From: Candidatus Eisenbacteria bacterium
GTDB taxonomy: Bacteria; Eisenbacteria; RBG-16-71-46; SZUA-252
Direction of reading: 5' to 3'
DNA length: 36,636 nucleotides
Assembly (NCBI GenBank): GCA_035712245.1
Contig: DASTBC010000019.1
Coordinates: forward strand, 1 to 36,636
Part shown: piece by piece, positions 2,682 through 36,636 of the stretch
Position numbering within the stretch: the stretch's first letter is position 1
How the letters are laid out: every line of letters begins with the position of its first letter
The notes under the pieces: model-generated
Database searches by the model: none
Seen by the model: the letters and a program-made list of their open reading frames with translations, nothing else
What the model was told of the DNA's origin: nothing
Made by a program: the position numbers and the translations under genes

Positions 2682-2702
2682 TCTGGGCGTGTCTTGGGGA
2701 GG

Positions 2703-2723: not shown

Positions 2724-2732
2724 GCGGGGGAG

Positions 2733-3002
2733 CTACTTGCGGAGTCCGAGCTCCTTGACCACCAACCGGTAGCGCTCGATCTTCGTCATCTTCAGGTAAT
2801 CGAGCAGTCTTCTGCGCTGGCCCACCATCCGGAGCAGCCCGCGGCGACTGTGATGGTCGCGCTTGTGGACCTTGAAATGCTCCGTCAGGTACTTGATTCG
2901 TTCGGTGAGAAGAGCGATTTGGACTTCGGCCGACCCCGAGTCGGTCTCGTGGGTCTTGAACTGGCCGATCACTTCGCGCTTCCTGTCTGGGCTCAACGGC
3001 AC
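2733..3002 (-). CDS. rpsO: 30S ribosomal protein S15
   Basis: S15 is a primary 16S rRNA-binding protein of the small-subunit platform. The sequence has the family core: [15 protein letters not shown], then [20 protein letters not shown], and the ending GLRK. The GTG at 3002 is chosen because the sequence AAGGAGG at 3017-3011 sits 8 nt upstream and the product is then 89 residues (starting MPLSPDRK), the usual S15 length. A longer reading from the GTG at 3011 would overlap that ribosome-binding site. A sigma70-like promoter lies about 40-70 nt upstream, so rpsO-pnp can be transcribed separately from the ribF operon. Confidence 0.96.
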
Positions 3003-3044
3003 CGGTGCCACCTCCTTGACTTCCCTCTCTATCGACGAGCGAGC

Positions 3045-3074
3045 ACTCTACCGAAGAGTGGGCCTTGGTTTCAA
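3045..3074 (-). promoter_or_regulatory. Sigma70-like promoter for rpsO-pnp
   Basis: On the minus strand TTGAAA (3074-3069, 5 of 6 to consensus) and TAGAGT (3050-3045, 4 of 6) are separated by 18 bp in the 79-bp gap between ribF and rpsO. A small dyad (CACTCT/AGAGTG) covers the -10 region. Confidence 0.55.
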
Positions 3075-3081
3075 GCGGGAA

Positions 3082-20760: not shown

Positions 20761-21558
20761 CTAGGCCGGCGTGTTCGCTCCGCTCGGGGCGGTGATGCGC
20801 TTCTCCTTCAGGTGCGGCACCACGGGGACGCTGTCCACGCGCGCGCAGACCGGCAGGTCCTCCTCGAATCCCAGCTCGATCAGGTACCGGCCGTGCTCGC
20901 TCCGCCTCAGAATCGCCTCGATGTCCTGGCCGTGCGACCGGTCGTACTCGCGCACGAGCTCGGCGGCGTCGTTCAGCTCGAGCCCGATCACGCTGTTCGC
21001 GAGCCGGCCGGTCAGCGCTCCGGCGCACGCGGCGTCCTCGAGCGAGAACCGGCCGCTCCTTCCGGCGCAGACGATCACGAGGTCCTGCGCGGTCTTCTGG
21101 ACCTCGTCGGCCACGGCGCCCAGGTTCACGTAGGAGAGGAGCCGCTGCTCGCGGCCGCCGAGGAGCCCGGCCATCAACGGGCTCGCGTTGGACGAGGCGA
21201 AGAGCAGGGTCTTGCCCTCCACGCGGTCCCTCGTGTAATCGCGCGGCGAGTTGCCGAGGTCGAACCCGCCCACCTTCTTTCCGTCCCGCTCCCCGCTCAG
21301 GAGACGCGACTTGGGATCGAGGGTCTGCGCGAGCTTCGTCGCCTCCTCCACCGTGGTGACCGGGATGATCTTCGCGGCGCCGTTCGAGAGGGCGACCGCG
21401 ATGGACGTGCAGCTCCGCAGAACGTCGACGATCACGATCTGCCGGCCGTCCAGCGTGGCGCGGTCCACCTCGGAAGGCATCAGGTAGACGTCCACGCGCC
21501 GTAGCCCGCTGCCGGCGCCGCCCGGAGCCGCCTTCGCTCCCCGCACGGGACGGGTCAC
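20761..21558 (-). CDS. comB: 2-phosphosulfolactate phosphatase family protein (ComB-like)
   Basis: ComB is a Mg-dependent phosphatase that makes sulfolactate from phosphosulfolactate in coenzyme M synthesis. Many bacteria without coenzyme M carry homologues of unclear role. Family blocks are [47 protein letters not shown] and [25 protein letters not shown] at 21558 is chosen because it overlaps the accC stop by 4 bp and AAGGCAGG lies upstream, giving 265 residues. A GTG at 21495 would give 244 residues and match shorter relatives, since the first 20 residues are Gly/Ala/Arg-rich and look unconserved. No comA or other sulfolactate gene is in the window, so the real substrate is uncertain. Confidence 0.85.
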
Positions 21559-22913
21559 GCGACCTGCCTTCGCGTGGAGAGGAACTCCTCCAGGTACCCG
21601 GTATGGATCTCGCCGCGGCGGAACGCGGCGTCGGCGAGGACCTCGAGGTGGAAGGGGAGCGTCGTGTCGATCCCCTCGACCACGGTCTCCTCGAGCGCCC
21701 GGCGCATGCGCGCGATGGCCTCGGCCCGGTCCCGCCCCCACGTGATGATCTTCGCCACCATGGAATCATAGTAGGGGGGCACGACGTACCCCGAATAGAG
21801 GTGGCTGTCGACGCGGACCCCGGGGCCTCCGGGCCCGTGGAAGTACTTCACCTTCCCGGGCGAGGGCTGGAAGTTCCGATCCGGGTTCTCCGCGTTGATC
21901 CGGCACTCGAGCGCGTGGCCGTGGAGCTGGATCTCGGACTGCTTCCAGGGGAGCGGCTCCCCCGCGGCGACCGTGATCTGCGCCTTGATGAGGTCGAGCC
22001 GCGTCACCATCTCCGTGACCGGATGCTCGACCTGGATGCGCGTGTTCATCTCCATGAAGTAGAACTCGCCCGCCGGGCCGAGCAGGAACTCGATCGTGCC
22101 CGCCCCCTCGTACCGGATCGCGGCCGCGGCCTTCACGGCCGCCTCCCCCATCCGCGCGCGGAGCTCCGGCGTGAGCGCCACGCTCGGCGCCTCCTCGATC
22201 AGCTTCTGGTGCCGGCGCTGGATCGAGCACTCGCGCTCCCCCAGGTGCACGATGTTCCCGTGCTTGTCCCCGAACACCTGGAACTCGATGTGCCGGGGCC
22301 GCTCGATGTAGCGCTCGAGGTAGACCTCGCCGGAGCCGAAGTTCGCCTCCGCCTCCGCCTGCGCCAGCATCACGCCGTTCCGGAGCGACGCCTCGTCCTG
22401 GGCGATCCGCATCCCCTTTCCACCGCCGCCGGCCGCCGCCTTGATGATCACCGGATATCCGAGGGACTTCGCGACGTCCGCGGCCTCGTCCGCCGAGCCC
22501 AGCACGCCCTCGCTGCCCGGCGTGACCGGCACGCCGGCGGCCACCGCGGTCTTCCGGGCGACGGCCTTGTCGCCCATGGTGCGGATCATCTCGGAGGTGG
22601 GGCCGATGAACCGGATGTGGCACGACTCGCACACCTCGGCGAAGTGCGCGTTCTCGGAGAGGAATCCGTAGCCGGGATGGATCGCGTCCGCGGCGGTGAT
22701 CTCGGCGGCGCTGATGATGCGCGCCATGTTGAGGTAGCTCACCGAGGACGGAGGGGGCCCGATGCACACGGCCTCGTCGGCGAGCCGGACGTGGAGCGAG
22801 TCCCGGTCGGCCTCGGAGTAGACCGCCACGGTCTCGATGCCCATCTCGCGGGCGGCACGAATGATGCGGAGCGCGATCTCTCCTCGGTTTGCGACCAGGA
22901 TCTTCTTGATCAT
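21555..22913 (-). CDS. accC: Acetyl-CoA carboxylase, biotin carboxylase subunit
   Basis: The enzyme carboxylates the biotin on AccB using ATP and bicarbonate, the first step of fatty-acid synthesis. Its 452 residues are the usual length. It starts [20 protein letters not shown]. The ATP-grasp domain carries [16 protein letters not shown] and [18 protein letters not shown], the catalytic biotin-carboxylase block. The C-terminal domain includes [19 protein letters not shown]. The ATG lies 9 bp after the pilT stop with only a weak ribosome-binding site. It is separated from its partner accB by pilT, an unusual interruption of accBC. Confidence 0.98.
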
Positions 22914-22922
22914 TCGGGCGGC

Positions 22923-24044
22923 CTAGACGAATTCCTGCTTCTGGCGCTCGAAGGTCTTCCAGGATTCGTCGGAGGTCGCGTGGATGCCCTTCACGCGGAG
23001 CTCGAACTCGTTGGGATTGCTGCAGTACTTGAGCGCGTTCTCCAGGCTGATCCTCTCCTCGGTGTAGAGCTTCATGATCGCCTGGTCGAAGGTCTGCATC
23101 CCGTACTGGGAGACGCCCTCGGCGATGGCGCTCTTGATGAGCGACGTCTTGTCCTGTTCGAGCAGGTACTCGCGGATCGTCGAAGTCACGATCATGATCT
23201 CGGCGGCGGGAACGCGACCCACGCGATCGGAGCGCGGGATCAGCCGCAGCGCGACCACCGCCTGGAGTGTGCTCGCGAGCATGAACCGGATCTCCTCGTG
23301 ATCGTGGGGCGGGAAGAAGGAGATGATCCGGTTCACCGTCTGGGCGGCGTCGATCGTGTGGAGCGTGGAGAGGACGAGATGGCCCGTGTCCGCCGCCATG
23401 AGGGCCGTGCGCATGGTGTCGGGATCGCGGATCTCGCCGATCAGGATCACGTCGGGGTCCTGACGGAGGATGTGCTTCAGGCCGTCGTGGAACGTCGCCG
23501 TGTCGAGGCCCACCTCGCGTTGCGAGATGGTGCTCTTCTTGTCCCGGAACAGGAACTCGACCGGGTCCTCGATCGTGATGATGTTCCGGGCCTCGCGGCG
23601 GTTCATCGAGTCGATGATGGCGGCGAGCGTCGTGGACTTGCCGCTCCCCACCGTGCCGCAGACGAGGATGAGTCCCCGCGGCTTCGCCGCGAGCTCCTCG
23701 ATCACGGGCGGGAGGTTCAGCTCCTCGAACGCGGGGATCGTGGCCGGCACCTGGCGGAAGACGAACGCGAACGTGCCGCGCTGCTGGTAGAAGTTCGACC
23801 GGAAGCGGGACATGCCGGTGACGCCGAACGCGAAGTCGACCTCCTTCGTCTCCTCGAACACCCGCTTCTGCTTCGGCGTGAGGATCTGGTCGACGACCGC
23901 TTCCATGTCGGCCTGGGTCGGCGGCGGCTCGTCGATCACGACGAGCTCCCCGTTCACGCGCGCGGTCGGCTTCGTGCCGACCTTGACGTGGAGGTCCGAG
24001 GCGTTCAGCTCCACCATCTTCTGAAGGACGCGCTTGATGTTCAT
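22923..24044 (-). CDS. pilT: Type IV pilus retraction ATPase, PilT-like
   Basis: A 373-residue secretion-type ATPase. The N-terminal PAS-like domain begins MVELNASDLHVKVGTKPTAR, typical of PilT. The ATPase core has Walker A GTVGSGKST (about 129-137), the Asp box TIEDPVEFLF, Walker B VILIGEIRDPDT, and a His box around HLVLSTLHT. The C-terminal region has YGMQTFDQAIMKLY, seen in PilT/PilU proteins. It would power pilus retraction from the cytoplasmic face of the inner membrane. The ATG has GGGAG 5-9 nt upstream, 20 bp after accB. No other pilus gene is nearby, so it sits alone inside the accB-accC pair. PilU rather than PilT cannot be excluded. Confidence 0.93.
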   Translation of the reverse strand: MNIKRVLQKMVELNASDLHVKVGTKPTARVNGELVVIDEPPPTQADMEAVVDQILTPKQKRVFEETKEVDFAFGVTGMSRFRSNFYQQRGTFAFVFRQVPATIPAFEELNLPPVIEELAAKPRGLILVCGTVGSGKSTTLAAIIDSMNRREARNIITIEDPVEFLFRDKKSTISQREVGLDTATFHDGLKHILRQDPDVILIGEIRDPDTMRTALMAADTGHLVLSTLHTIDAAQTVNRIISFFPPHDHEEIRFMLASTLQAVVALRLIPRSDRVGRVPAAEIMIVTSTIREYLLEQDKTSLIKSAIAEGVSQYGMQTFDQAIMKLYTEERISLENALKYCSNPNEFELRVKGIHATSDESWKTFERQKQEFV

Positions 24045-24064
24045 CCGACTCCCCCCCCGCGCGC

Positions 24065-24504
<440 letters not shown>

Positions 24505-24508
<4 letters not shown>

Positions 24509-24978
24509 CGCTTCCGATCCTTGGCGCGCCGTTTCCCGCCGACGCCGATCATGGAAGCGAGCGCATGGAGTCCGAGCTCGTAGCTTCCCGGGCCGAATCC
24601 CATGATCACGCCGGCGGCGGCGCTTCCCGTGAGGCTGAACCGCCGCTCGGGATCGCGCGCGTACAGGTTGGTCATGTGCACCTCCACCACGGGGATCGTG
24701 ACCGCTCGAAGGGCGTCGGCGAGCGCGAGGCTCCCGTGGCTGAGCGCGGCCGGATTCAGGAGACATCCGTCCGCCTCGTCCATCGCCACCGTGAGCCGGT
24801 CGACGAGCGCTCCCTCGTGGTTCGTCTGAAAGGAGGAGACGCGAAGCCCCAGCACCTCGCCGAGCTTCGCGAGCCTGCGGTCGATCGTTTCGAGCGTCTC
24901 CGAGCCGTAGAGGCCCGGTTCCCTCCGTCCGAGGAGGCCGAGGTTGGGTCCGTGAAGAACCCACACGTCGCGAGCCAT
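24505..24978 (-). CDS. aroQ: 3-dehydroquinate dehydratase, type II
   Basis: The third step of the shikimate pathway: dehydration of 3-dehydroquinate. Its 157 residues match the dodecameric type II family. The N-terminal [17 protein letters not shown] holds the catalytic Arg/Tyr loop, [12 protein letters not shown] is the substrate block, and [16 protein letters not shown] holds the active-site histidine; the more usual form is NPxAYTHTS, so this is a mild variant. [14 protein letters not shown] follows. The C-terminus is basic. The ATG at 24978 shares one base with the upstream TPR stop (TGATG), and its own stop overlaps accB. The aroQ-accB-accC neighbourhood is common in bacteria. Confidence 0.96.
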
Positions 24979-25814
24979 CAGGAGCCCTCCCGTCCTCGGA
25001 GCTGGCGAAGCCAGGTCTCGAACGCGGCCTTGTTCCCCTCCACGCGCGCGCCCGACATCGGCAGCGGCACCTCGACCGGAGGAAGCTCCGCCGGAGACGG
25101 GCGCGGCGCCGCGACGGCTTCCGGATCCGCGGTGCTCGCAGGCTCCGCGGCCGGGCTCGATCCTGCGCCTTCGGGGACCGCGGACGGAGCCATGGGCTCG
25201 AGACCGATCTCCACGGGCGCGTCCTCGGCGACACGCTCCGCGGCGGCTTCCGGAGCCGGCACCGCCGGAGCGAAGGTGTCGATGTTCCGGAGCCCCAGCG
25301 CCAGCTCGGGGAGATGCTCTTCCTCGCGAGGGAGGCGGACCGGCTGCCAGGTGAGGCCGCCCTGGCCCACGATGACGTCCGCGGGTCGCGCCTCGGGATA
25401 CTCGCCCGATGTGATCTGGTGGAGCGCGGTCTGCGACTCGAGATCGCCCGGGTCGACGCGGCAGACCGCCCGGTAGTAGCCCCCGGCCTCTTCGTGACGG
25501 CCCTCATGGGAGAGGATCCCGCCGAGCGCCTTCAGGGCGACGACGTTCTCGCGGTCCAGCGTGAGCGCGGCCTCGAACTCCGCGCGCGATTCGCCCAGGC
25601 GACCCTGCGCGAGGTACGCGCGCCCGAGAACGATGTGATCGCCCACGCCGCGCCCGGGCCGCGTGCGGCGCTCCTCGCACAGGCGGACCGCCTCGTCGAG
25701 CCGGCCCTGCAACGTGAGCCGCTCCGCGAGCGGCAGGTAGAGTGCGGTCGCCGGATCCCTGGCGACGATCTCCTCGAGCGGAAGGACGACATCCGCGCGC
25801 GCGTCAACGCTCAT
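24978..25814 (-). CDS. TPR-containing cytoplasmic protein of unknown function
   Basis: A 278-residue protein with no signal peptide. The ATG at 25814 is chosen for its strong ribosome-binding site (GGAGGA, 7-8 nt upstream); the longer frame would read into aroB. Residues about 20-140 contain about three tetratricopeptide-like repeats (for example [20 protein letters not shown] and [19 protein letters not shown]). A long Ala/Pro/Glu-rich, probably disordered linker (about 175-255) follows, then a short terminal motif [11 protein letters not shown] that could form an amphipathic helix. It sits between aroB and aroQ with 16-bp and 1-base junctions. A scaffold or adaptor role is possible; no specific function can be assigned. 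Confidence 0.75.
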
Positions 25815-25830
25815 GGATTCTTCCTCCGAC

Positions 25831-26946
25831 CTATCGGACGAGACTCGATACGACGCGTCGAAGCGTGGTAAGCGACGATAGCTCAAAGACTTTAGATTTG
25901 CCGATCGCGGGGCACAATACCATTCGAAGGGCCGATCGTCCACGCTTCTTGTCCCGGGACAGCGCTCTCCAGAACGCGGTTCCAGGTTCCCGGTCGAGGC
26001 GCGTCGGCAGTCCGAGCCGCGCGAGGAGCGCTTCCACGTCCGCCGCGTCCACCGGGTGGAGCCCCGCTTCGAGCACGCTGAGCCGGAGCGCCGCGACCAT
26101 GCCGATCGACACGGCCTCGCCGTGGAGATAGCGCCGGTATCCGGACGCGGTCTCGAGCGCGTGCCCCACCGTGTGTCCGAAGTTGAGCGCGCGCCTCGCG
26201 CCGCGGTCCCCCTCGTCCAGGCTGACGAGCCGCGCCTTCGCGCGCGCGGCTTCGCGAAGGAGCGGCACGAGCGCGCGCCGCCCCCTCCCCGCGTTCGGGC
26301 GGCGCGTTCCGCGCGCGAGCCGCTCGAGCGCGGGGATCATGCGCGGCCGCGCGATCACGCCGATCTTGAGCACCTCGGCGAGACCGGCGCGAAGCTCGCG
26401 CGGCGGCAGCGTCCGGAGCGTTCCCGTGTCCGCGAGAACGATCTCGGGATGGTGGATCGCGCCGACGAGGTTCTTCCCCGTCTCGAGGTCGATCCCCGTC
26501 TTGCCTCCGATCGCGGCGTCGGCCTGCGCGACGACGGTGGTGGGAAGCGCGGCCCATCGAAGGCCCCGCGCGTAGCTCGCGGCCGCGAAGCCCGCGACGT
26601 CCGAGACCACGCCTCCTCCCAGCGCCACGACGAGCGCGTCCCTGTCGACGCGCGCGCGAGCCCATGCGTCGCAGATCCGCCGGTAGGAACGGAACGACTT
26701 GGCGCGCTCGCCGCTGGGGAGCGTGATCCGCCGCACGCGGAATCCGGCCCGCTCGAGGCTTCGCTCCACGCGCCCGCCGTAGAGCGCCCCCACCGTGCGG
26801 TCGGTCACGAGGAGCGCGCTCCCGCCGCGTCCCCGCCCGGACGCGCCATCGACCGCGCGAAGGAGGCGCCCGGCCCGGTCGAGGAGCCCCGCGCCGACTT
26901 CGATCCGGTACGTCACCGGTCTTCGGAGCACCCGAACCCGGATCAT
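25831..26946 (-). CDS. aroB: 3-dehydroquinate synthase
   Basis: The second step of the shikimate pathway, an NAD- and zinc-dependent enzyme. The 371 residues have family blocks GGGVVSDVAGFAAASYARG, the near-universal QADAAIGGKTGIDLETGKN, then LNFGHTVGHALE (metal ligands) and HGEAVSIGM. The ATG at 26946 overlaps the upstream stop by 4 bp (ATGA) and begins MIRVRVLRRPVTYRIEVG. The longer open frame upstream is only a shadow of the DUF4837-like gene. The N-terminal half is very Arg-rich, in line with the GC content. Confidence 0.96.
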   Translation of the reverse strand: MIRVRVLRRPVTYRIEVGAGLLDRAGRLLRAVDGASGRGRGGSALLVTDRTVGALYGGRVERSLERAGFRVRRITLPSGERAKSFRSYRRICDAWARARVDRDALVVALGGGVVSDVAGFAAASYARGLRWAALPTTVVAQADAAIGGKTGIDLETGKNLVGAIHHPEIVLADTGTLRTLPPRELRAGLAEVLKIGVIARPRMIPALERLARGTRRPNAGRGRRALVPLLREAARAKARLVSLDEGDRGARRALNFGHTVGHALETASGYRRYLHGEAVSIGMVAALRLSVLEAGLHPVDAADVEALLARLGLPTRLDREPGTAFWRALSRDKKRGRSALRMVLCPAIGKSKVFELSSLTTLRRVVSSLVR

Positions 26947-27902
26947 GGCTCCGAGAGCGACTCCGCGACGGCCTGGAGCTCGCGCAGGTGCGGGAGCTTC
27001 GCGCGCCCCGGCGCGAACACGGCGAGATCCACGTGATAGCGCCGCGCGCCGCGCGCGACCTCGTAGAAGCGGTAGGGCCCTCCGGCACTCACCTCCTCGT
27101 CGGCCCAGCGTCCGTGGAGCCGGCGCGTCGCGCCGGCCATCTCGTCCGGAACGAGCATGGGATCGAGATCGTCGAGCGTCCGCTCGCGAGGACGGAAGAG
27201 GCGCGCCAGGTCGGATCGCGCCCGGAGTAGATCCCGCGGCGGAGTCCCCTCCGCGCGACGGAGGCGCAGGAGCCGCGCGGGGGGGCCTTCGTCCATGAGG
27301 AGCGCCGCGTTCCGCGCGCGGTCCACGCGCACCCGAAACCCGCGCGGCACGATCATGCGGATGCCGAGGGACTCCTCGAGCGCGCGTTCGGCGCGCCCGT
27401 CGCGCGGGAGGGCGTGCACGCGCTCGCGCACCGCGGCGAACGTGGCGCGGTCGAGCTCGAGGAAGAACCGGTTCTGCTCCCGCGAGAGGGCGGTCATCCA
27501 CTCGGCGCGTGTCTTCGTCCAGAAGATCCCGACGGCCTGCCCGCGCCGCCAGAGGTCGGGGACGAACGCGTAGGGACGCGGGGACCGCCGGAGCGCCTCC
27601 CGGAGCGCGTCCGACTTCCGGCCCCCCGGAATCCGGTCCGGGGGCCCGAAGCCCGCGAGGATCACGTTGGACGAGCGGCGCGCGCGGGCATCGTCCGGAC
27701 GGGCGAAGCGGATCCGGTACGTCGTCTCGTCGTCGATGCGGAGCGCGGGCCGCTGCACGACGGCGCGCAGGAGGAGGAGCTCCGGCGCGTCCTCGGCGAG
27801 GATCGAGACGATGGTGAGCTCCCGGCTCGATCCTTCGGCGAAGGGAGCGCCACACCCGCCCGCCGCGACGGCGAGGCCGGCGAGAAGCAGGGGAAGGATC
27901 AC
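26943..27902 (-). CDS. Putative lipoprotein, DUF4837-like
   Basis: A 319-residue exported protein with a short hydrophobic start (ILPLLLAGLAVAAGGC) ending in a lipobox-like cysteine at residue 17. Features reminiscent of DUF4837 lipoproteins of Bacteroidota are the block PDLWRRGQAVGIFWTKTRAE (about 115-134), the following NRFFLELD, and a second half starting SLGIRMIVPRGFRVRVDRAR. The assignment is by eye and moderate. The start is GTG at 27902 without a clear ribosome-binding site. It is separated by 60 bp from the upstream HtrA-like gene and overlaps aroB by 4 bp, so it may head the aroB-to-comB operon. Function unknown. Confidence 0.65.
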   Translation of the reverse strand: MILPLLLAGLAVAAGGCGAPFAEGSSRELTIVSILAEDAPELLLLRAVVQRPALRIDDETTYRIRFARPDDARARRSSNVILAGFGPPDRIPGGRKSDALREALRRSPRPYAFVPDLWRRGQAVGIFWTKTRAEWMTALSREQNRFFLELDRATFAAVRERVHALPRDGRAERALEESLGIRMIVPRGFRVRVDRARNAALLMDEGPPARLLRLRRAEGTPPRDLLRARSDLARLFRPRERTLDDLDPMLVPDEMAGATRRLHGRWADEEVSAGGPYRFYEVARGARRYHVDLAVFAPGRAKLPHLRELQAVAESLSEP

Positions 27903-27962
27903 GGTGGCGCGCAGGCTAGCACAGCCCGCGCGGGCGCGGCTAGCGGCGGCGCCGCGAGCGCG

Positions 27963-29246
27963 TCAGCGGGACCCGGTGCTCGGGGAGGTCGGGGACTCCG
28001 GAGGGGACGGGGACGAAGACCCCGAGCCCTCGAGGCTCCGGATCTCGTTCTCGAGGCGGCGCCTCTCGAGCTCGAGGCGCTCCAGCTCTTCTCGCTTCCG
28101 CTGCAGGGTCGCGGCGCTCTCCGAACGCGGACCGATCGGCGCCCCGGAGGCCGCGGCCCCCACCACGGCGCGAATCGGGAAGATCTCGTTCTTGCGGAGA
28201 ACGGTCACCTCGACCTCGTCCCCGGGACGGGCGGCCCGCACCATGGCGGTCAGCTCGTCCGCTCCGTGCGCCTCCTCTCCGTCGATCGCCAGGATGCGGT
28301 CGCCGGCGAGGAATCCGGCGGAGTCGGCGGGACTCCCGGGAATCACGGCGGCGACGAGGACCCCCAGGGAATCCGAGACCGCCGTCGCGCGCCGGAGCTG
28401 GATGCCGAGGAAGCCGTGGCGCACCGCGCCGTAGCGCTCCAGCTCGTTTGCGATCCACGCCGCGTGCTCCACGGGAAGCGCGATGAGCATCCCTCCCGCG
28501 TCGGCAGGAGCGATCTCCACGCCGCCGACACGCGATCCGTCCGGAGCGTCGGGCGCGGCGCGTCCCACCACGACGGCGACCCACTCGCCTTCCTCGTTCA
28601 GGACGGCGCCGCCGGTCACGCCGGGATAGCTCGGAGCGTCGATCTCGAGCACCTCCGCGCCGTTCTGCACGAAGTCGATGCGCTCGCCCCGACCGAGGAT
28701 GCGTCCCAGCGCGGCCTGCGGGCGGGTGATGGCCACGTTCGACACGACCGCGACCCAGCTGCCGACCGCGAGCGACCGGGGCGACGCGACGCGCAGCGGA
28801 CGAAGCGTCGCTCCCTCGACCTTGAAGAGCGCGAGGTTCGACTGACGATCCACGCCCTGGAGCGTCGCGGGCCGCTCCACGCCGCCTCCGAGGAGCACGC
28901 GCACCCGTCCGCCCGGAATCGCGACGCTTGCCGACGTGATGATGCGATCTCCGGACGTGGCGAGGGCGGTGCCGATCAGGCGCTTCTTCTTCCCGGATCG
29001 GGACGTGCCGTCGGAAGGCGGGTACGCGACGACGGTGAGGATGCTGGACTGGACGGAATCGACGACTCCGAGAAGAGAGGCGTCATCCGAGCGGAACGCG
29101 CTCGTGTGCGGGACCGCGGAAGCGGTGCTCGGAATCGCGATGGGAGCGGCCGTCGCGAGAAGGAGGAGCGTCACGGCGGCCACGAGCGGCCGTGCCACGC
29201 CGAGGAGCGTCGTCGGCCGGCCGCTAGAAGATGATGTACACGTCAT
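27963..29246 (-). CDS. HtrA/DegP-like PDZ protein with a degenerate (likely inactive) protease domain
   Basis: 427 residues: signal peptide (about 17-44, ending STASA), trypsin-like domain (about 55-265), one PDZ domain (about 278-362, HGFLGIQLRR then PGSPADSAGFLAGDRILAID), a coiled coil (about 377-407) and a Ser/Pro tail. The protease domain aligns with HtrA along its length, but all three triad positions differ. TNNHV of HtrA is TSASV (His to Ser107), TDLALLK is SNLALFK (Asp to Asn137) and PGNSGG is PGVTGG (Ser to Thr211). Proteolysis is therefore unlikely. It overlaps the anti-sigma gene by 23 bp, where a DegS/MucD-type protease would be expected. No strong ribosome-binding site is visible; a later GTG at 29198 would shorten the signal peptide. 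Confidence 0.88.
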   Translation of the reverse strand: MTCTSSSSGRPTTLLGVARPLVAAVTLLLLATAAPIAIPSTASAVPHTSAFRSDDASLLGVVDSVQSSILTVVAYPPSDGTSRSGKKKRLIGTALATSGDRIITSASVAIPGGRVRVLLGGGVERPATLQGVDRQSNLALFKVEGATLRPLRVASPRSLAVGSWVAVVSNVAITRPQAALGRILGRGERIDFVQNGAEVLEIDAPSYPGVTGGAVLNEEGEWVAVVVGRAAPDAPDGSRVGGVEIAPADAGGMLIALPVEHAAWIANELERYGAVRHGFLGIQLRRATAVSDSLGVLVAAVIPGSPADSAGFLAGDRILAIDGEEAHGADELTAMVRAARPGDEVEVTVLRKNEIFPIRAVVGAAASGAPIGPRSESAATLQRKREELERLELERRRLENEIRSLEGSGSSSPSPPESPTSPSTGSR

Positions 29247-29991
29247 CGGAGGGCCGGCCCGAGACCGGAGTGATGCTCGGAGCGCCAGATCCGCCGTTGC
29301 CGCGATCCAGATAGAACTGGTCGGTGATGTACTCGTCGACGTAGCCCGTGCCGGGGTTCGGAATCTCGCTTCCGCCCGTCGGTCCCTGGGCGGTCGCCTG
29401 GCTCGACACCGTCGCCAGATCCGGGGGCTGCGCCTGGCGCGGCTCGGACGTCGCGGGCGGCAGCGCGCGCACCCTCGTCGCGGTGCCGGATGCGATCTCG
29501 GTGCCGGACGGCGCGGGACTCGTGCCCTGCCCCGCGGAGACGGCAGGCGCGTCCGGCGTGACCGTGGAAGGGGACTCGGTCGCAGATGGGGCCTTCGTTT
29601 CGATCGACGCGACCGGTGCGACGCTCGGATCCCGGTTCAGGGCCGGATACACGATGAGCGCCGCGACCCAGACGGCGCACGCGCCGGCTCCCGCCACCGC
29701 CACGGGCCGGAGCCACGCGGGCGGCGCGAGGAATCCGCGGGCCCACTCGATCAGGGAGGGCCGGAGCCCCTCGCCGGAGCGGATGCGAACCATCACGTCC
29801 TCTTCGAAGTGAGGGCTCGTGTCCTCCAGGGGAAGGCTCTGGAAGAGCTCCAAGGCGGCGCGCGTTTCCTTGAGGCTCACCGAACACTTGCGGCAGGAGA
29901 GGAGGTGCGTCTCGAGCGAGCGTCGCTCGTTCTGGCTCAGCTCGTCTTCAATGAGCGCGGAGAAGAGGGACTCGGCAGACCGGCAGTTCAT
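29224..29991 (-). CDS. Membrane anti-sigma factor with N-terminal zinc finger
   Basis: 255 residues. The N-terminus is an anti-sigma zinc finger: Cys3, then His29-x3-Cys33-x2-Cys36 (HLLSCRKC). This fold clamps ECF sigma factors in the cytoplasm. A single membrane helix lies at about 94-116 (VAVAGAGACAVWVAALIVYP), followed by a Pro/Ser/Thr-rich periplasmic region (about 120-215) and a more ordered end (GYVDEYITDQFYLDR). The last residues are DDVYIIF, a hydrophobic aromatic C-terminus of the kind bound by HtrA-family PDZ domains. The ATG at 29991 overlaps the sigma stop by 4 bp (ATGA) with GGAGG 5 nt upstream. The adjacent PDZ gene makes a physical partnership plausible. Confidence 0.9.
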   Translation of the reverse strand: MNCRSAESLFSALIEDELSQNERRSLETHLLSCRKCSVSLKETRAALELFQSLPLEDTSPHFEEDVMVRIRSGEGLRPSLIEWARGFLAPPAWLRPVAVAGAGACAVWVAALIVYPALNRDPSVAPVASIETKAPSATESPSTVTPDAPAVSAGQGTSPAPSGTEIASGTATRVRALPPATSEPRQAQPPDLATVSSQATAQGPTGGSEIPNPGTGYVDEYITDQFYLDRGNGGSGAPSITPVSGRPSDDVYIIF

Positions 29992-30629
29992 ACATCCTCC
30001 AAGGTGAGGTGCGGCTTGAGCCGTTCCTTCAGCATGAGCCGGGCGCGGTTGATGCGCGAGCGCACCGTGCCTCCCGGGATCTTGAGGATCTGGCCCACCT
30101 CCTCGTAACTGAGACCCTCGACGTCCCGAAGCACCACCGCCTCGCGGTAGCGAGCGGGGATCTTCCGGAGGGCTTCGGCGACCTTCTGCCCGATCTCGTG
30201 GGCGGTCAGGTCCTCGTCGGGGAGCGGCTTCGAGTCGGGGAAGGACATCCCCTGCCCGCTCGAATCTTCCTCCATCGCGTCCAGGCTGAACGTGCCCTTG
30301 TGGCGCACGCGGCTCCGGATTTCGTTCTTCGTGAGGTTCACCGCGATCGTGAAGATCCACGTGGAGAACTTCCCGCTCTTCCGGTACCGCTCCCGGTTCC
30401 GGAAGACCCTCAGGAAGACCTCCTGACTGATCTCCTCCGCCCGGTCCCGGTCGTTGATGAACCGGCAGACCAGGTTCATGATCCGCGTCCGATACCGCTG
30501 AACGAGCGCGCGGAACGCCGCCTCGGAGCCCATCGCACAGCGCTCCATGACGTCCTCATCGCTCAGCTCGGCAAGATCGAGCTTTTTCAAGCGCAGGGGC
30601 TCGAGTGGCACGTCGCTCTCCGTGTTCAT
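29988..30629 (-). CDS. ECF-type RNA polymerase sigma factor (RpoE-like)
   Basis: 213 residues from the ATG at 30629; a GTG at 30644 would add five residues. Sigma region 2 spans about 40-110 (FRALVQRYRTRIMNLVCRF, then RAEEISQEVFLRVFRN and KFSTWIFTIAVNL). Region 4 spans about 155-205 (LRKIPARYREAVVLRDVEG, SYEEVGQILKIPGGTVRSRI). No region 1.1 or 3 is present, as expected for group 4 sigma factors. It directly precedes and overlaps the anti-sigma gene, the standard arrangement for envelope-stress regulators. It starts 43 bp after the secreted TPR gene, so the four genes are probably cotranscribed. Confidence 0.95.
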   Translation of the reverse strand: MNTESDVPLEPLRLKKLDLAELSDEDVMERCAMGSEAAFRALVQRYRTRIMNLVCRFINDRDRAEEISQEVFLRVFRNRERYRKSGKFSTWIFTIAVNLTKNEIRSRVRHKGTFSLDAMEEDSSGQGMSFPDSKPLPDEDLTAHEIGQKVAEALRKIPARYREAVVLRDVEGLSYEEVGQILKIPGGTVRSRINRARLMLKERLKPHLTLEDV

Positions 30630-30672
30630 GGGTACACCGCCCACGGAGGCGAGGTTCCTGGATGAGGAGAAC

Positions 30673-32346
30673 TTAACGGGTCTGGAAGAGGCTCAGGCCC
30701 GTGGGAGGGCTCGGCCGGCCCGACTTGGCGCGCGCCTCGGCTTCCCGGGCTTCCGAGTCGAGCCTGAGGCTGCGGCAGACCCGAGCCAGGGCCCGGTTGG
30801 CCTCGATCACGGTCTCGGGACATTGGGAGGCTCGCGTCAGGAGCTCCCGAGCCATCTCGAGCTGGCCGCGCTTCTGACGGATCGAGCCCAGGAGTAGCAA
30901 GGCTCTGCCGTTCTTGGGGTTGAGCTGGATGGCCCGGCTCAAGGTATGGATGGCCTGCGGCGCGTTCCCCTGCGCCAGCTCGGCCGATGCCAGGAAGTAG
31001 AGGCATTCGGATGTCTCCGTACCGAGATCGCGCAGCCGTTCCCAGGCCCACTGGGCCAGGAGGCTGTCCCCCAGCACTGTCGCCGTGGAGCCGAGCTCCG
31101 CGTAGACGGAGGGACTCGACACCCCTCGGGCGGCGCTTTCCCGGATCAGCCCGACCGCCATCTCGGGGTGGCCGAGCAAAGAATAACATAGACTTGCGGC
31201 GAGGACCTGCCTGGGGTTGGCCATCGGAGTCCGGCGAACCCCTTCCAGCGTTCTGATGCCCTTCCCACGGTCTCCGACCCGGATTTCCAGGTACGCCACG
31301 ACCAGGGATTCCTCCCGGGTGAAGGTCCATCCGGGGATGTTCCGACGGTAGCCCTCGAGCGCCTTCCTCTCCTCCCCCAGGGCCAGGTTCGCCCGGGAGC
31401 GGATCGGGACGGTCCGGGCGTCCGGCTTGAGCGGTTTCACGACCTCGAGCGCGGCGCGGTAGTGCCCGGCGGCCAGGAGGCCCTGTCCGGCATCCACCCG
31501 GATGTCGTCCTCCCGCAATCCCCTCGCGTCCGCCCAGGACAGGAGCTGGTGGAAGTCCTGGAACTTGGCCTCCCGGACCAGGAACCCGGCGAGGGCAGCC
31601 ACGTGTTCTTGACGAGGCTCCCCGCCGAGCGCCAGCTCGCGAAGAAGGGTTTCCTCCAGCGCGAGATCCCCCCGCCGCTGCGCGAGAGAGACACCCAGGG
31701 CAAGGGTCCTGGGGTCTCCGGGTTTCAGCTCCAGGGCCAGGCGGAGGGCTTGATTCGCTTCCTCCAGCCGGCCGTCCTCGAGCGCAAGGCCGAGGATCCC
31801 GGTCGCGATCCACGCGAAGTCGGGCAGGAGCACATCGGTCCGCTTCAGGTCGGCGAGCGCCGCCTCGTAGTTCCGGTTCAGCTCGTTCGCCAGAGCCCGG
31901 AGCGCATAGAGCTCGGGCATCGCGCCGAGCTGGCGAAGGGGAGGCGTCAGCACCTGCACCGCCTTCGCCGCCTCGCCCGACCGCAGCCGCATCCGTCCCA
32001 CGAGCATGGCCCCGTCCGCGTTCGTGCTGTCGAGCGCGAGCGCCTGCTCCCCCCACTCGAGCGCGCGCACGTCCTCCCCGATCTCCTCGCAGAGGAGGGC
32101 GACCCGGGAGCGGGCGAAGCTCGAACGGGGATCGAGGACCGTCACCGACTCGGCCCATGCGATGGCCGCCACGCGGTCTCCGGCCGCCTCGGCCAGTTGC
32201 GAGCGCACGTGGCACTGGATCGCCGCGGGGGTATAGAGCGTGAAGAAGTACGCGCGGGCGGGAGCGGCCTCGCCCGCGAGGAGGGCCAGCGTGCCGCAGA
32301 AGAGGAGCGCCTTCAGGCGCTCATTCGAGGTACGGGTCACGTTCAC
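30673..32346 (-). CDS. Secreted tetratricopeptide-repeat protein of unknown function
   Basis: 557 residues with a signal peptide (RLKALLFCGTLALLAGEAAPARA, cleavage near residue 32). The remainder is helical repeats: several TPR-like units are visible, for example AIAWAESVTVLDPRSSFARS, ALRLALELKPGDPRTLAL and AIHTLSRAIQLNPKNGRALL. The protein is probably periplasmic. The GTG start at 32346 has AGGAG about 11 nt upstream. A promoter lies about 75 nt upstream at the 3' end of rnc. It is the first gene of the sigma/anti-sigma/pseudo-HtrA group, which suggests an envelope function linked to that stress response. That link is inferred from position only. Confidence 0.82.
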   Translation of the reverse strand: MNVTRTSNERLKALLFCGTLALLAGEAAPARAYFFTLYTPAAIQCHVRSQLAEAAGDRVAAIAWAESVTVLDPRSSFARSRVALLCEEIGEDVRALEWGEQALALDSTNADGAMLVGRMRLRSGEAAKAVQVLTPPLRQLGAMPELYALRALANELNRNYEAALADLKRTDVLLPDFAWIATGILGLALEDGRLEEANQALRLALELKPGDPRTLALGVSLAQRRGDLALEETLLRELALGGEPRQEHVAALAGFLVREAKFQDFHQLLSWADARGLREDDIRVDAGQGLLAAGHYRAALEVVKPLKPDARTVPIRSRANLALGEERKALEGYRRNIPGWTFTREESLVVAYLEIRVGDRGKGIRTLEGVRRTPMANPRQVLAASLCYSLLGHPEMAVGLIRESAARGVSSPSVYAELGSTATVLGDSLLAQWAWERLRDLGTETSECLYFLASAELAQGNAPQAIHTLSRAIQLNPKNGRALLLLGSIRQKRGQLEMARELLTRASQCPETVIEANRALARVCRSLRLDSEAREAEARAKSGRPSPPTGLSLFQTR

Positions 32347-32420
32347 GTCGTCTCTTTCTCCTGATATGAGAATGGAGGAAGACCCGGATGGGCCCTCCTC
32401 CCCCTCGAGACGACGCTATG

Positions 32421-32449
32421 ATTTTACAGAATCAAGGTTCGGACTGCAA
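32421..32449 (-). promoter_or_regulatory. Sigma70-like promoter for the TPR-sigma-anti-sigma group
   Basis: On the minus strand TTGCAG (32449-32444) and TAAAAT (32426-32421, 5 of 6 to consensus) are spaced by 17 bp, overlapping the last codons of rnc. This is an AT-rich island in GC-rich surroundings, about 75 nt upstream of the TPR gene start. Confidence 0.5.
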
Positions 32450-33761
32450 GTGCGATGCGGCCCACGGGGCCGATTCGGCGCGCGATGAGGCGGCCGAACG
32501 CTCGCTCGTGCCGCGATCCGGAGCCGCAGCGTCCGGCGATCCGCCGCGATCGGAACCGCCCGACGGCTCCTCGTAGGCGCGCGGCGCCTCCGGGACCTCC
32601 CTTGGCTCGCGTGATTCGCGTGGTTCCTGAGACTCGCGTGGCTCACGTGGTTCGCGACCCTCCCAAGAGGGACGCTGTTCCCGTGGTTCCCGTGGTTCCC
32701 GTGACTCCCGTGATTCGCGTGGCTCCCGAGGCTCGCGGTGCTCCCTCGAGTCGCCATGGATCTCGCGCCCTTCCCTGGGCTCGCGTCCTTCGCGACCCTC
32801 TCGTCCTTCACGGCGTCCGCGTCCCGAGCGCCGATCGCGCCCGGTCCGTCCCCCGCGCTCCTCGCGGCTGCGGGACTCCACTCCGCGCGCCTCGGTTGCC
32901 TCGGGGGGCCCGCCGTTCCGTCCACCCCGGCGTCCCCGGCCGCCCCGACGCCGGCGCCGGCGCTCGCCCGCACCCTCGTCGTCGCTCTCGCGCTCTCCGC
33001 GAACGAGCTTCTCGAAGTGGAGGAGCGCGTCGCGGGCGGCCTCCTGCTCCGCCTCCTTCTTGTTGTTTCCGTGGCCGCGTCCGAGCGTCTTGCCGTTCAC
33101 GACCACCTCGACCGCGAAGAGCTTCTGATGGTCGGGACCGTTCTCGCTCGAGATGCGGTACTGCGGATGGGTCTTGAACTCGCCCTGCACATACTCCTGG
33201 AGCATGCTCTTGTAGTTCGCGAGATTCGCGTCGCTCAGGATCTCGTGCACCTCGCGCAGGAGGAGCCGCTCCGTGAGCTTCCGCGCGGGCTCGAGCCCGC
33301 CGTCCAGGTACACGGCTCCGATCACCCCTTCGAGCGTGTCGGCGAGGATCGACGCGCGCGCGTCCGCCGGACCCGTTCTCGGCCTCGCTCAGCAGGATGT
33401 ACTTGCCGAGGCCCATGAGATTGGCGGTGCGCGAGAGGATGACGCGCGACACCAAGAGCGACTTCATCTTGGTCAGCTCGCCTTCGCGGAGCTTGGGAAA
33501 CTTGTTGTAGAGGAACTCGTTCACGGCCAGCCCCACCACCGAGTCGCCGAGGAACTCCATGCGCTCGTTGGATTCGCCCCCCCGCCCCGGAGTGGCGTGC
33601 AGGTAAGAGCGATGGGTCATGGCCGTGCGAGCCAGAGCGGGATTCTTGAATTCGTACTTGAGAATCCGCTCGAGGCCCTTGAGATCGAGGTCCCGCTCCT
33701 TGGTCCGCACGGGTGCGGCCGCGGGGCGGTCCAGACCGAACAGCTTTCTCAGAAAGTTCAC
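32432..33761 (-). CDS. rnc: Ribonuclease III with Arg/Glu-repeat tail, interrupted by an apparent frameshift
   Basis: Double-strand RNA endonuclease. The N-terminal catalytic part (residues 1-133 from the GTG at 33761) contains ERMEFLGDSVVGL (Glu69 and Asp73). The frame then breaks at a (CG)5 run (33353-33362). The rest continues in another frame as SILADTLEGVIGAVYLDGG (second catalytic Asp/Glu), a dsRNA-binding domain (YKSMLQEYVQGEFKTHPQYR to NNKKEAEQEAARDAL) and a tail of about 190 residues rich in REP/RES/REG triplets. One more CG unit would restore a 443-residue protein with normal spacing between the GG and ILAD motifs. A sequencing or assembly error, slippage or a true mutation are all possible. 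The position after fabF is conserved in many bacteria. Confidence 0.88.
32598..32816 (-). repeat. Imperfect 9-bp tandem repeats encoding Arg-Glu-Pro/Ser/Gly triplets in the RNase III tail
   Basis: The DNA shows many near-copies of a 9-bp unit such as CGTGGTTCC (plus-strand view) spread over about 220 bp, in phase with the reading frame. They are translated as runs like REPREPRESRESREPREPRE and GREGREGREPREGRE. The codons vary, so this is a diverged repeat under coding constraint rather than a recent perfect expansion. Confidence 0.8.
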
Positions 33762-33770
33762 TGGTTCCAG

Positions 33771-33788
33771 GGACCCCTCATGGGATCC
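33771..33788 (-). promoter_or_regulatory. Small hairpin in the fabF-rnc gap
   Basis: The minus-strand transcript reads GGATCCC-ATGA-GGGGTCC, a 7-bp stem (one G-U pair) with a 4-nt loop, 10-27 nt before the rnc GTG. No U-run follows, so it is not a terminator. It could affect rnc translation or be an RNase III site; function unknown. Confidence 0.35.
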
Positions 33789-33791
33789 CTC

Positions 33792-35051
33792 CTATGCCAC
33801 GTACCTCGATAACGCCAGGGTGACGTTGTGCCCACCAAAGCCCAGTGAGTTGGAGAGGGCTGCCTGCAGCTCGACCGCGCGTGCAGTGTTGGGGACGTAA
33901 TCGAGGTCACAGTCGGGATCCGGAGTTTCGTAATTGATCGTCGGGGGGAGCTTCTGCCGCTCCAGGGCGAGGACGCAGATGATCGTCTCGAGCCCTCCGG
34001 CGGCACCCAGAAGATGCCCCGTCATCGACTTCGTCGAGCTGACCGGGAGCTTCTTCGCCTGTTCTCCGAAGACCGACTTGATGGCCTGTGTTTCAAATTT
34101 GTCGTTGAGTGGCGTAGAGGTGCCGTGGGCGTTCAGATAACCGTACGATTCGGGCGCGAGGCCCGAATCCCGGATCGCCGCCCTCATGGCGCGCGCCGCA
34201 CCCTCACCCTCGGGGGCCGGAGCCGTCATATGGTGGGCATCTCCCGTGGCGCCGTAACCGACGACCTCCGCGAGGATCTTCGCGCCGCGCCTTCGGGCAT
34301 GCTCGAGCTCCTCGAGCACCAGCACCCCGGCGCCTTCCCCCATCACGAACCCGTCCCGCTGGGCATCGAAGGGGCGCGAAGCCTTTTGAGGCTCGTCGTT
34401 GCGCGTGGACATCGCCTTCATGGAGCAGAAGCCGGCGAACGAGACCGGGGTGATCGGCGCTTCCGCGCCCCCCGAGATCATGACGTCCGCCTCGTTGTTC
34501 TGGATGATCCGGAATGCGTCCCCGACGGCGTGCGCGCCCGAAGAACAGGCGGACACCGTGCAGTAGTTGGGGCCCTTCGCGCCGAACTGGATGGAAACCT
34601 GGCCCGACGCCATGTCCGAGATCATCATGGGGATGAAGAAGGGGCTCACCCGGGAGGGGCCCTTCTCGAGCAGCGTTCGATGCTGGTCCTCGAACGTCGC
34701 GATGCCGCCGATGCCGGAGCCGACCACGACTCCGTATCGCGTCGGATCCACGACTTCCGGCGAGACCCCCGCCTGCTTCACGGCCTGCGCCGTGGCGCCG
34801 ATGGCGTACTGGACGAAGAGGTCGGCACGGCGGATGTCCTTCCTGTCGAGGTAATCCTCCGCCTTGAACTCCCGTACCTCTCCGCCGAAGCGGGTGTCGT
34901 ACTTCGACGTGTCGAAGCGCGTGACGGGCCCGATGCCCGACTCGCCGGCGAGGAGCCGCGTCCAGAACGTCTCGATCTCCGAGCCCAGGGGGGAAACCAC
35001 CCCCAGGCCGGTCACCACGACGCGCCGCGGCTCACCATTCGAGCGATTCAT
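33792..35051 (-). CDS. fabF: 3-oxoacyl-[ACP] synthase II (KAS II)
   Basis: The condensing enzyme elongating fatty acyl-ACP with malonyl-ACP. Its 419 residues are the family length. It begins [15 protein letters not shown]. The active-site cysteine is in [15 protein letters not shown] (about 167), the two histidines in [11 protein letters not shown] and [13 protein letters not shown], and the C-terminal [14 protein letters not shown] is typical. The ATG at 35051 has only a weak purine-rich upstream site. It follows acpP after 77 bp containing a GC-rich hairpin. The fabG-acpP-fabF-rnc order is widely conserved. Confidence 0.98.
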
Positions 35052-35095
35052 CGAAATTCTTCATTCCCCAGGATGCAATGCGACTCTGCTCCCGC

Positions 35096-35118
35096 GCGGC
35101 CCCGTGCGTGGGGACCGC
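35096..35118 (-). promoter_or_regulatory. GC-rich hairpin between acpP and fabF
   Basis: The minus-strand transcript carries GCGG-T-CCCC paired with GGGG-CCGC around a 6-nt loop (8 bp with one bulge), 11 nt after the acpP stop. No T-run follows. It could protect the acpP mRNA 3' end or be a processing site; inference only. Confidence 0.4.
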
Positions 35119-35128
35119 GCCTGCCGAA

Positions 35129-35377
<249 letters not shown>

Positions 35378-35403
35378 GTCTCTCTCACCTCCCCTTTAGA
35401 CTC

Positions 35404-35421
35404 GTCCCGCTCGGGCGGGAC
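35404..35421 (-). promoter_or_regulatory. Perfect hairpin between fabG and acpP
   Basis: GTCCCGC and GCGGGAC form a perfect 7-bp stem with a 4-nt loop in the 60-bp fabG-acpP gap, followed by the acpP ribosome-binding site. No T-run follows. Possible mRNA processing or 5'-end stabilising element for acpP. Confidence 0.45.
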
Positions 35422-35437
35422 TCCGTAACCCGCTAAC

Positions 35438-36184
35438 CTACATCACCATGCCGCCATCCACCGTGAGGACCTGCCCCGTGACGTAGCCGGCCTCCTCCGA
35501 GCAGAGGAAGAGCACGGCATGGGCGACGTCCTCCGGCTTCCCCAGGCGCCCCAACGGGATGCGCGACGTGAGCGCCTCCCGCGCCTTCTCCCCGAGGGCC
35601 TCGGTCATGGCGGTGTCGATGAAGCCCGGGGCCACCGCGTTCACGGTAATATGGCGTGAGGCGAGTTCCTTCGCAACTGCTTTTGTCAGGCCGATTAAGC
35701 CCGCTTTGGATGCCGCGTAGTTGGCCTGGCCCGCGTTTCCCATGAGCCCGACCACCGACGTGATGTTCACGATCCGTCCCCAGCGCTGTTTCACCATCGG
35801 GCGGGCGAACGCGCGGGTGCAGTGGAACGCGCCCTTCAAGTTCGTGTCGATCACCTCGTCCCAGTCCCTGTCGCTCATGCGCAGGAGGAGTCCGTCCCGG
35901 GTCACGCCGGCGTTGTTGACCAGGATCTCGGCCTTCCCGAACGCTTCGAGGGTCTTCTCGACGAGGAGGTCTGCCTCCGATTCCCGGGCCACGTCCGCCT
36001 GCACGGCGATCGCCTCGCCGCCGCCCGCGACCACCTCGGCGCACGCCTCCTCGAGCGCTTCCGGGTTGCGGCCCGACACCACGACCTTCGCACCCGCCGC
36101 GGCGAAGGCGCGCGTCATGGCGCGTCCGATCCCCCGGGCTCCTCCCGTCACCACGGCGACCCGCCCCTTCACGCTCGCGATCAC
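35438..36184 (-). CDS. fabG: 3-oxoacyl-[ACP] reductase
   Basis: An NADPH-dependent short-chain dehydrogenase that reduces 3-oxoacyl-ACP, 248 residues. The nucleotide-binding motif is VTGGARGIGRAM, the NNAG motif is in ILVNNAGVTRDGLLLRM, and the catalytic tetrad includes Ser in NITSVVGLMGN and YAASK (Tyr-x3-Lys). It ends GQVLTVDGGMVM, as FabG does. The start is GTG at 36184, overlapping the fabD stop by 4 bp (GTGA); a GTG at 36172 is possible but less likely. Confidence 0.97.
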   Translation of the reverse strand: MIASVKGRVAVVTGGARGIGRAMTRAFAAAGAKVVVSGRNPEALEEACAEVVAGGGEAIAVQADVARESEADLLVEKTLEAFGKAEILVNNAGVTRDGLLLRMSDRDWDEVIDTNLKGAFHCTRAFARPMVKQRWGRIVNITSVVGLMGNAGQANYAASKAGLIGLTKAVAKELASRHITVNAVAPGFIDTAMTEALGEKAREALTSRIPLGRLGKPEDVAHAVLFLCSEEAGYVTGQVLTVDGGMVM

Positions 36185-36636
36185 AGCGCGGGCGCTCCCG
36201 CGAGGACCGACGCGGCCGCCTCGATCGAGTCAGGATCCTCGGAGCCGAAGAGCTGGGCTTCCTTGTCCACCCCGCGCGCGAGGCCTCGCAGCACGCGTCC
36301 GTTCCCGACCTCGACGTAGCGCCGGATGCCGGCTCCCTTCATCGCCGTCATGGTCTGCTCCCAGAGGACGGGCGAGAGGAGCTGCTCCCGGAGCGCGCGC
36401 CGGATCTCGTCCGGCGCCGTGACCGGCGCGGCCGAGACGTTGGCGTACACCGGGACGCGCGCGGGCGCGATCGCCGCCGCGTCGATCGCCGCGTTCAGCT
36501 TTCGCGAGGCGGCCTCCATGAGCGGGGAATGGAAGGCCGCACTCACCTGTAAGAGGACGACCTTCTTCGCTCCGGCTCGCTTCGCCTCCTCGGACGCGCG
36601 CGCCACGGCGTCGGGCGTGCCCGAGAGCACGACCTG
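36181..36636 (-). CDS. fabD: Malonyl-CoA:ACP transacylase (C-terminal part, cut by window edge)
   Basis: The last 151 codons of the enzyme that loads malonyl groups onto ACP. The fragment starts QVVLSGTPDAV at the edge (the family NAPGQxVxSG region). It includes SAAFHSPLME, holding the catalytic histidine, then PVYANVSAAPVTAPDEIRRA and YVEVGNGRVLRGL. The GHSLG serine motif lies beyond the window. Its stop overlaps the fabG start. Confidence 0.95.
   Translation of the reverse strand, partial: QVVLSGTPDAVARASEEAKRAGAKKVVLLQVSAAFHSPLMEAASRKLNAAIDAAAIAPARVPVYANVSAAPVTAPDEIRRALREQLLSPVLWEQTMTAMKGAGIRRYVEVGNGRVLRGLARGVDKEAQLFGSEDPDSIEAAASVLAGAPAL

Follow-up and report, generated by a model that had tools for sequence, protein, structure and literature searches.

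A conserved HtrA-like pseudoprotease encoded with a sigma/anti-sigma pair, and its candidate ligand at the anti-sigma C-terminus

What is an HtrA-like protein kept for when all three of its catalytic residues are replaced and its gene lies next to a sigma/anti-sigma pair? We studied this question for a gene of Candidatus Eisenbacteria bacterium (GenBank assembly GCA_035712245.1) on contig DASTBC010000019.1, of which the analysed stretch of 36,636 nucleotides is here called the window. To our knowledge, most bacterial HtrA pseudoproteases described so far come from magnetosomes. Sequence comparisons established the operon, a catalytic His that is lost universally although the PDZ loop is retained, and an aromatic anti-sigma end that is paired with the HtrA-like protein (hereafter pseudo-HtrA). 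We consider it probable that pseudo-HtrA serves in the periplasm as a dedicated receptor that binds, but does not cut, the anti-sigma factor of the gene immediately upstream.

Domains and catalytic positions of pseudo-HtrA

The coordinates of the gene, its domains and its neighbours are given in Table 1. The open reading frame starts with an ATG at 29246 and runs down to 27963 on the minus strand, with zero internal stops over 427 codons. A first-pass annotation of the window had also called the gene intact, without stating its strand. The protein has the HtrA layout of a trypsin-like domain followed by a PDZ domain, and its Trypsin_2 and PDZ_2 scores were well above the Pfam cut-offs. The AlphaFold2 (AF2) model (mean pLDDT 81, pTM 0.71) matched the structures of DegP, DegQ, DegS-YQF and AlgW-peptide, with E-values of about 1e-21 to 1e-23. 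The HtrA fold and the retained PDZ domain proposed in the first-pass annotation were thus both recovered. Scores against the NCBIfam models of HtrA/DegP Do proteases (TIGR02037, 101.5 bits) and DegS (TIGR02038, 82.5 bits) remained below the curated cut-offs of 416 and 423 bits, respectively. At the N-terminus, a hydrophobic segment is followed by an ASA-like site (AQ/A sites in family f8; both by eye), which suggests a cleaved signal and gives the protein a secreted look. The coiled coil had been described as a gain. The helix is indeed present, but it is ancestral rather than newly acquired, as it occurs in most Eisenbacteria orthologues and in several other phyla.

Table 1. Features of the pseudo-HtrA locus; positions refer to the window.
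Feature	Position	Strand	Remarks
ECF sigma factor gene	29988..30629	-	Its stop and the anti-sigma start share a 4-base overlap (ATGA)
zf-HC2 anti-sigma gene, 255 aa	29224..29991	-	One TM helix at about 92-117; periplasmic tail of about 138 aa, predicted disordered; end overlaps pseudo-HtrA start
Second tail motif FYLD (elsewhere FILD, YVLD or YILP)	29305..29316	-	Conserved in tails; defined by eye
Anti-sigma C-terminus -VYIIF-COOH, PDZ-ligand-like	29227..29241	-	Terminal F in 34/34 aligned orthologues
Pseudo-HtrA gene	27963..29246	-	427 aa, with a signal peptide, a dead trypsin-like domain, a single PDZ domain and a coiled coil at the C-terminus
Degenerate protease domain, residues 92-225	28572..28973	-	Pfam Trypsin_2, 61 bits; fold match to DegP/DegS/AlgW
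Codon S107, replacing catalytic His (DegS H96)	28926..28928	-	His kept in 0/57 family members and in 38/38 comparison HtrAs
Codon N137, replacing catalytic Asp (DegS D126)	28836..28838	-	N/G/H in 40/40 Eisenbacteria members
Codon T211, replacing catalytic Ser (DegS S201)	28614..28616	-	26/40 Eisenbacteria members have S and the others T/G/A/C
PDZ domain, residues about 276-358	28173..28421	-	Pfam PDZ_2, 61 bits at 278-354
C-terminal coiled-coil helix, residues 377-408	28023..28118	-	AF2 pLDDT >90 in core; most relatives keep the coil

Alignment with Escherichia coli DegS (MG1655 record) placed TSASV against TNKHV, QSNLAL against LTDLAV and GVTGG against GNSGG. The His-Asp-Ser triad of the HtrA/DegP Do endopeptidases is therefore replaced by S107, N137 and T211, exactly as the first-pass annotation had read it.

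We searched 47 genomes of the phylum with a profile. A clear class of orthologues (at least 363 bits) was found in 31 of them, the remaining matches scoring at most 243 bits, and families f4, f5, f7, f9 and f10 have divergent orthologues at this locus. Among the 40 Eisenbacteria members, position 107 was S, D, T, G, R, M or E and never H, and position 137 was N, G or H and never D. Hence, the loss of His and Asp is universal in the phylum. Position 211 is no longer Ser in the window's genus and in f7, f9 and f10, where it is T, G, A or C. Judged from this distribution, the loss of Ser is secondary and repeated, the window's genus included, and is the least universal of the three losses. Within the Ser loop, residue 210 varies, and Gly 209 and Ser 211 are retained in many relatives. 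The genome of the window also encodes four ordinary HtrAs with intact triads.

Distribution and ancestry of the module

Outside the phylum, an anti-sigma profile search in 385 genomes yielded 60 zf-HC2 loci, 17 of which had an HtrA-like gene directly downstream. The catalytic His was absent from all 17 of these HtrA-like proteins, which had N, F, S, A, D, T, G, R or E instead; Asp was kept in 10/17 and Ser in 13/17. Across the 57 family members from within and outside the phylum, S, D, T, G, R, M, E, N, A or F occupied the His position. Twenty of the best-scoring HtrAs of other phyla, picked for their resemblance to the window protein, had intact triads without exception, and His, Asp and Ser were all present in the 38 comparison HtrAs. 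According to the first-pass annotation, close homologues with an intact triad would have reduced the gene to a decayed single copy. None occurred among the 40 Eisenbacteria orthologues or the 17 outside relatives.

A replication sample took HtrA-like genes as its starting point, covered the phyla to which four outside genomes belong, and comprised 45 loci. Sixteen of these lacked the His and 29 had the complete triad. An anti-sigma gene lay upstream of 15 of the 16 His-less HtrAs, versus none of the 29 intact ones; the lone His-less HtrA without an anti-sigma gene (in genome G387) starts 330 bases from a contig end. Eight modules were new in this sample, and their anti-sigma factors all end in Y or F (8/8). 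The four phylum searches gave different genomes, which places the module in at least five phyla, Eisenbacteria counted. Active HtrAs were present in nearly every genome searched.

Gene order was the same (ECF sigma factor, zf-HC2 anti-sigma factor, pseudo-HtrA) at all loci with enough flanking sequence, as read from the unfiltered list of upstream genes. The ECF sigma gene was upstream on the same strand at all loci checked but two, both of which are cut by contig ends. These genomes are mostly metagenome assemblies, with inferred start codons. The orthologues and their synteny bear out the proposed conserved, non-catalytic HtrA within a sigma/anti-sigma operon.

The wider neighbourhood in the window (21555-36630) contains FabG, FabF, Rnc, a TPR protein, the sigma factor, the anti-sigma factor, pseudo-HtrA, AroB, AccB, PilT and AccC, a lipid and shikimate setting. 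The TPR protein (30673-32346) is large and secreted-looking, and is encoded directly upstream of the sigma gene.

We inferred a maximum-likelihood tree of 95 HtrA-like proteins (57 pseudo-HtrAs and 38 active HtrAs) after removing the columns around the three catalytic residues. A single branch separated the pseudo-HtrAs from the active HtrAs (bootstrap 100, SH-aLRT 97, present in 200/200 bootstrap trees). The pseudo-HtrAs are thus likely of one ancient origin, as far as can be read from an unrooted tree with several long branches. Values of dN/dS over nine close pairs ranged from 0.17 to 0.48 (NG86; several pairs near synonymous saturation), which implies that selection maintains pseudo-HtrA.

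The C-terminal tail of the anti-sigma factor

The anti-sigma factor belongs to class I, with a PF13490 domain (30 bits), the zinc motif Hx3Cx2C and the ECF sigma gene upstream. Each aligned Eisenbacteria anti-sigma factor has one predicted transmembrane helix and an extracytoplasmic tail of 83-140 residues. In the AF2 model, the N-terminal domain and the transmembrane helix are ordered, and the tail has low confidence (pLDDT about 44 at the C-terminus). The invariant columns among the 34 aligned Eisenbacteria anti-sigma factors are C3, E22, H29, C33 and C36, which make up the zinc site with one neighbour, and the last residue, F255. Hence, the terminal F is invariant to the same degree as the zinc ligands. 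The window protein terminates in DDVYIIF, and ends elsewhere in the phylum include VYITF, AVITF, AVISF, VSMTF, RVLVTF and DTITF; wherever the HtrA-like protein of an Eisenbacteria module is full-length, the anti-sigma factor has the terminal F. This F occurred in none of the nine other zf-HC2 proteins of the window genome, and most paralogous anti-sigma factors of the phylum do not end in F.

In the outside sample, the anti-sigma factor ended in F, Y or W in 15/17 modules, versus 3/43 anti-sigma factors without an HtrA-like neighbour (Fisher p=1.8e-9). Counted by family, this was 11/13 versus 3/37 (p=6.6e-7). The F/Y/W criterion was set after the first 20 outside loci, and the following 40 alone gave 9/9 versus 2/31; the loci behind this conclusion were gathered without requiring a terminal F. 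The two non-aromatic exceptions among the 17 modules end in ...LQTVTFSP and ...AGGL. According to these comparisons, pseudo-HtrA likely has its partner in the C-terminal tail of the anti-sigma factor next to it, a partner that the first-pass annotation had missed.

Two explanations of the conserved end were rejected. Anti-sigma factors do not generally end in an aromatic residue, as is evident from the other zf-HC2 proteins of the same genome, the paralogues and the outside loci. Nor does the end simply follow from the gene overlap at the start of pseudo-HtrA, because the genes overlap differently in f8 and several other phyla, where the end is still kept.

A second tail motif was present in 29/34 Eisenbacteria anti-sigma factors (about 2 expected from shuffles) and in 12/17 other modules (about 1.5 expected), counts that are suggestive only for a motif defined by eye. 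Its distance from the C-terminus is about 17 residues in most of the outside modules with this motif, and about 30-40 residues in Eisenbacteria.

Family f11 departs from this pattern. Its locus L147 (genome G026, oriented positions 717-3888) is a syntenic sigma/anti-sigma operon in which a PDZ-only protein of 188 aa, with a signal peptide, a PDZ domain and a short helical tail, is found, and its anti-sigma factor ends in NPH. The pairing of an aromatic tail with an HtrA-like protein is therefore not universal. Aromatic recognition could need the full protein, or the f11 lineage could have been rewired. The operon has TPR, sigma and anti-sigma genes, with AroB, AroQ and AccB-like neighbours assigned by eye; the TPR frame precedes the sigma gene here as well.

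A proposed mechanism, its rivals and known systems

The PDZ domain of the window protein has the carboxylate-binding loop GFLGI (278-282), which aligns with GYIGI of DegS and corresponds to the YIGI loop of that protein. G281 is invariant in 57/57 family members. Within the pseudo-HtrA clade, the loop (G-aromatic-L-G-V/I) and the PDZ signature residues are conserved, while the His position drifts. Conservation at the catalytic positions and in the PDZ groove, the check named in the first-pass annotation, thus gave a His lost in all 57 members and a carboxylate loop that was kept. The PDZ domain of DegS binds YxF-type C-termini of outer-membrane proteins (OMPs), and that of AlgW binds the WVF end of MucE (PMC8103513, PMC8545111). 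A pairing of tail and PDZ domain is strongly implied by these sequences, and the PDZ domain of pseudo-HtrA very probably grips the C-terminal carboxylate and the aromatic side chain of the anti-sigma factor.

We propose the following mechanism. The PDZ domain would hold the anti-sigma C-terminus, and the second tail motif would lie in the dead groove, giving a two-point, substrate-like grip without cutting. That the motif sits in the cleft, so that the tail is bound in the manner of an HtrA substrate but escapes cutting, is conceivable but somewhat tentative. While held, the tail would be out of reach of the genuine site-1 protease. Under envelope stress, the C-termini of unfolded OMPs would become free and displace the tail from the PDZ domain; the released tail would be cut by an active HtrA and then by RseP, setting the sigma factor free. 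We give this sequence of shielding, competition and release a chance just short of even, and the direction of regulation is our guess, as the sequences support a partnership only. An RseP gene is present in the window genome, as are active HtrAs, so that the cleavage cascade is available. The protein most like BamA in this genome has L rather than F as its last residue (NTL), which makes the competing OMP ligand uncertain. About half of the Omp85-type proteins in the same genome (L105-L113) end in F, e.g., GGFTF and GVDF. The complete picture, a module in at least five phyla with a dead HtrA whose PDZ domain receives a ligand that the anti-sigma factor carries as its own C-terminus, sensing stress through OMP C-termini that compete off the tail, with no protease switched on, is still rather doubtful as a whole.

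Instead of guarding the tail, pseudo-HtrA might act as a positive adaptor that presents it to an active HtrA, or co-assembles with one, and so promotes cleavage. We regard this as unlikely. It has a precedent in MamO, a degenerate HtrA that activates MamE-dependent proteolysis (PMC4794232), and four intact HtrAs are available in the window genome; HtrAs are homo-trimers, and mixed trimers are conceivable. However, no intact HtrA adjoins the module in any genome examined. We favour a guard displaced by stray OMP C-termini and consider the adaptor a serious rival, the sequences being compatible with both. An improbable alternative is that the aromatic tail is a degron for an active HtrA or Prc, while pseudo-HtrA does chaperone or coil-scaffold work and the association is indirect. 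Active HtrA PDZ domains read C-terminal aromatics as well (PMC8103513), and the coiled coil could bind something else. Yet active HtrAs are near-ubiquitous in the genomes searched, whereas only 3/43 anti-sigma factors without an adjacent pseudo-HtrA have the aromatic end; the tail therefore tracks pseudo-HtrA and not the active HtrAs.

Two further explanations concern the protein itself. It could still be an enzyme that combines the Ser retained in most relatives with another general base, and Gly 209 and Ser 211 are indeed present in many of them. The Ser is gone, however, from the window's genus and three further families, residue 210 varies, and the ten residue types at the His position offer no consistent base, so that we find continued catalysis very improbable. 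The loss of all three catalytic residues could also mark a decaying pseudogene copy, a possibility that we consider practically negligible: the reading frame is intact in every complete locus, and the PDZ domain and operon order are kept across at least five phyla. Decay of a single copy is ruled out by intact orthologues in the genus, family and phylum, together with the dN/dS of 0.17-0.48 between close pairs.

Several known systems resemble parts of this module. DegS of E. coli and AlgW of Pseudomonas aeruginosa, the site-1 proteases that act on the periplasmic domain of the membrane anti-sigma factor in the sigma-E pathway (PMC8103513, PMC8545111), share the HtrA fold with one PDZ domain. 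They are active, membrane-anchored, encoded apart from the sigma operon and switched on by peptides that come from other proteins (OMPs, MucE). Pseudo-HtrA, in contrast, is dead, secreted-looking and encoded in the operon, and the anti-sigma factor itself bears the PDZ-ligand-like end. MucD of the Pseudomonas algU-mucABCD operon likewise combines HtrA family membership with a place in a sigma/anti-sigma operon. It is an active DegP-type protease, and its gene is separated from mucA by mucB and mucC.

RseB and MucB have an unrelated fold and respond to LPS, and their recognition does not run via a PDZ domain gripping a C-terminus. As non-enzymatic periplasmic guards that bind the periplasmic domains of RseA and MucA and block site-1 cleavage (PMC8545111), they act in the role proposed here for pseudo-HtrA. 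The lipid-binding domains of RseB and MucB are absent from the window protein, in which Pfam gives only the trypsin-like and PDZ domains. MamO of magnetotactic bacteria differs from pseudo-HtrA in that it retains His and Asp (H116, D149), with Thr replacing Ser, binds metal, has a transporter domain and serves in magnetosome formation with MamE. We know of no sigma/anti-sigma linkage of MamO. It is a member of the HtrA family with a degenerate triad and a non-catalytic function (PMC4794232). The window protein has a coiled coil instead of the transporter domain, and its neighbours are sigma/anti-sigma and lipid genes.

Dead HtrAs (MamO), PDZ sensing of C-termini by DegS and AlgW, and the anti-sigma guards RseB and MucB are thus already known. 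In the open literature searched, we met no description of pseudo-HtrAs that form a widespread lineage dedicated to anti-sigma factors with ligand-like ends. Our search there for ECF-linked or inactive HtrAs returned nothing relevant beyond MamO and AlgW, which is weak evidence of absence, and ECF classification tables may mention such genes. The lineage occurs in at least five phyla and has a single type of partner with a short, mutable candidate binding motif, and this motif turns the question of what a dead protease does into a peptide-binding experiment. The module suggests how envelope-stress sensing may run in poorly cultured phyla. If the PDZ-competition module is real, bacteria would have solved the problem of DegS a second time, and without catalysis. 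Anti-sigma adjacency combined with loss of the His can also flag misannotated 'serine proteases' in many genomes.

A few other loci drew attention during the searches. Another group of zf-HC2 anti-sigma factors (L153, L154, L155 and L185) has extra hydrophobic segments and ends in VLGF, ILGF or VVGF. At L153, L154 and L185, the anti-sigma gene is followed by a gene for a bactofilin-like repeat protein, and these ends form a second possible conserved C-terminal tail. L160 (G026:C59) encodes a zf-HC2 anti-sigma factor ending in VHAAF and, near it, a PDZ protein that combines bactofilin-like repeats with transmembrane segments.
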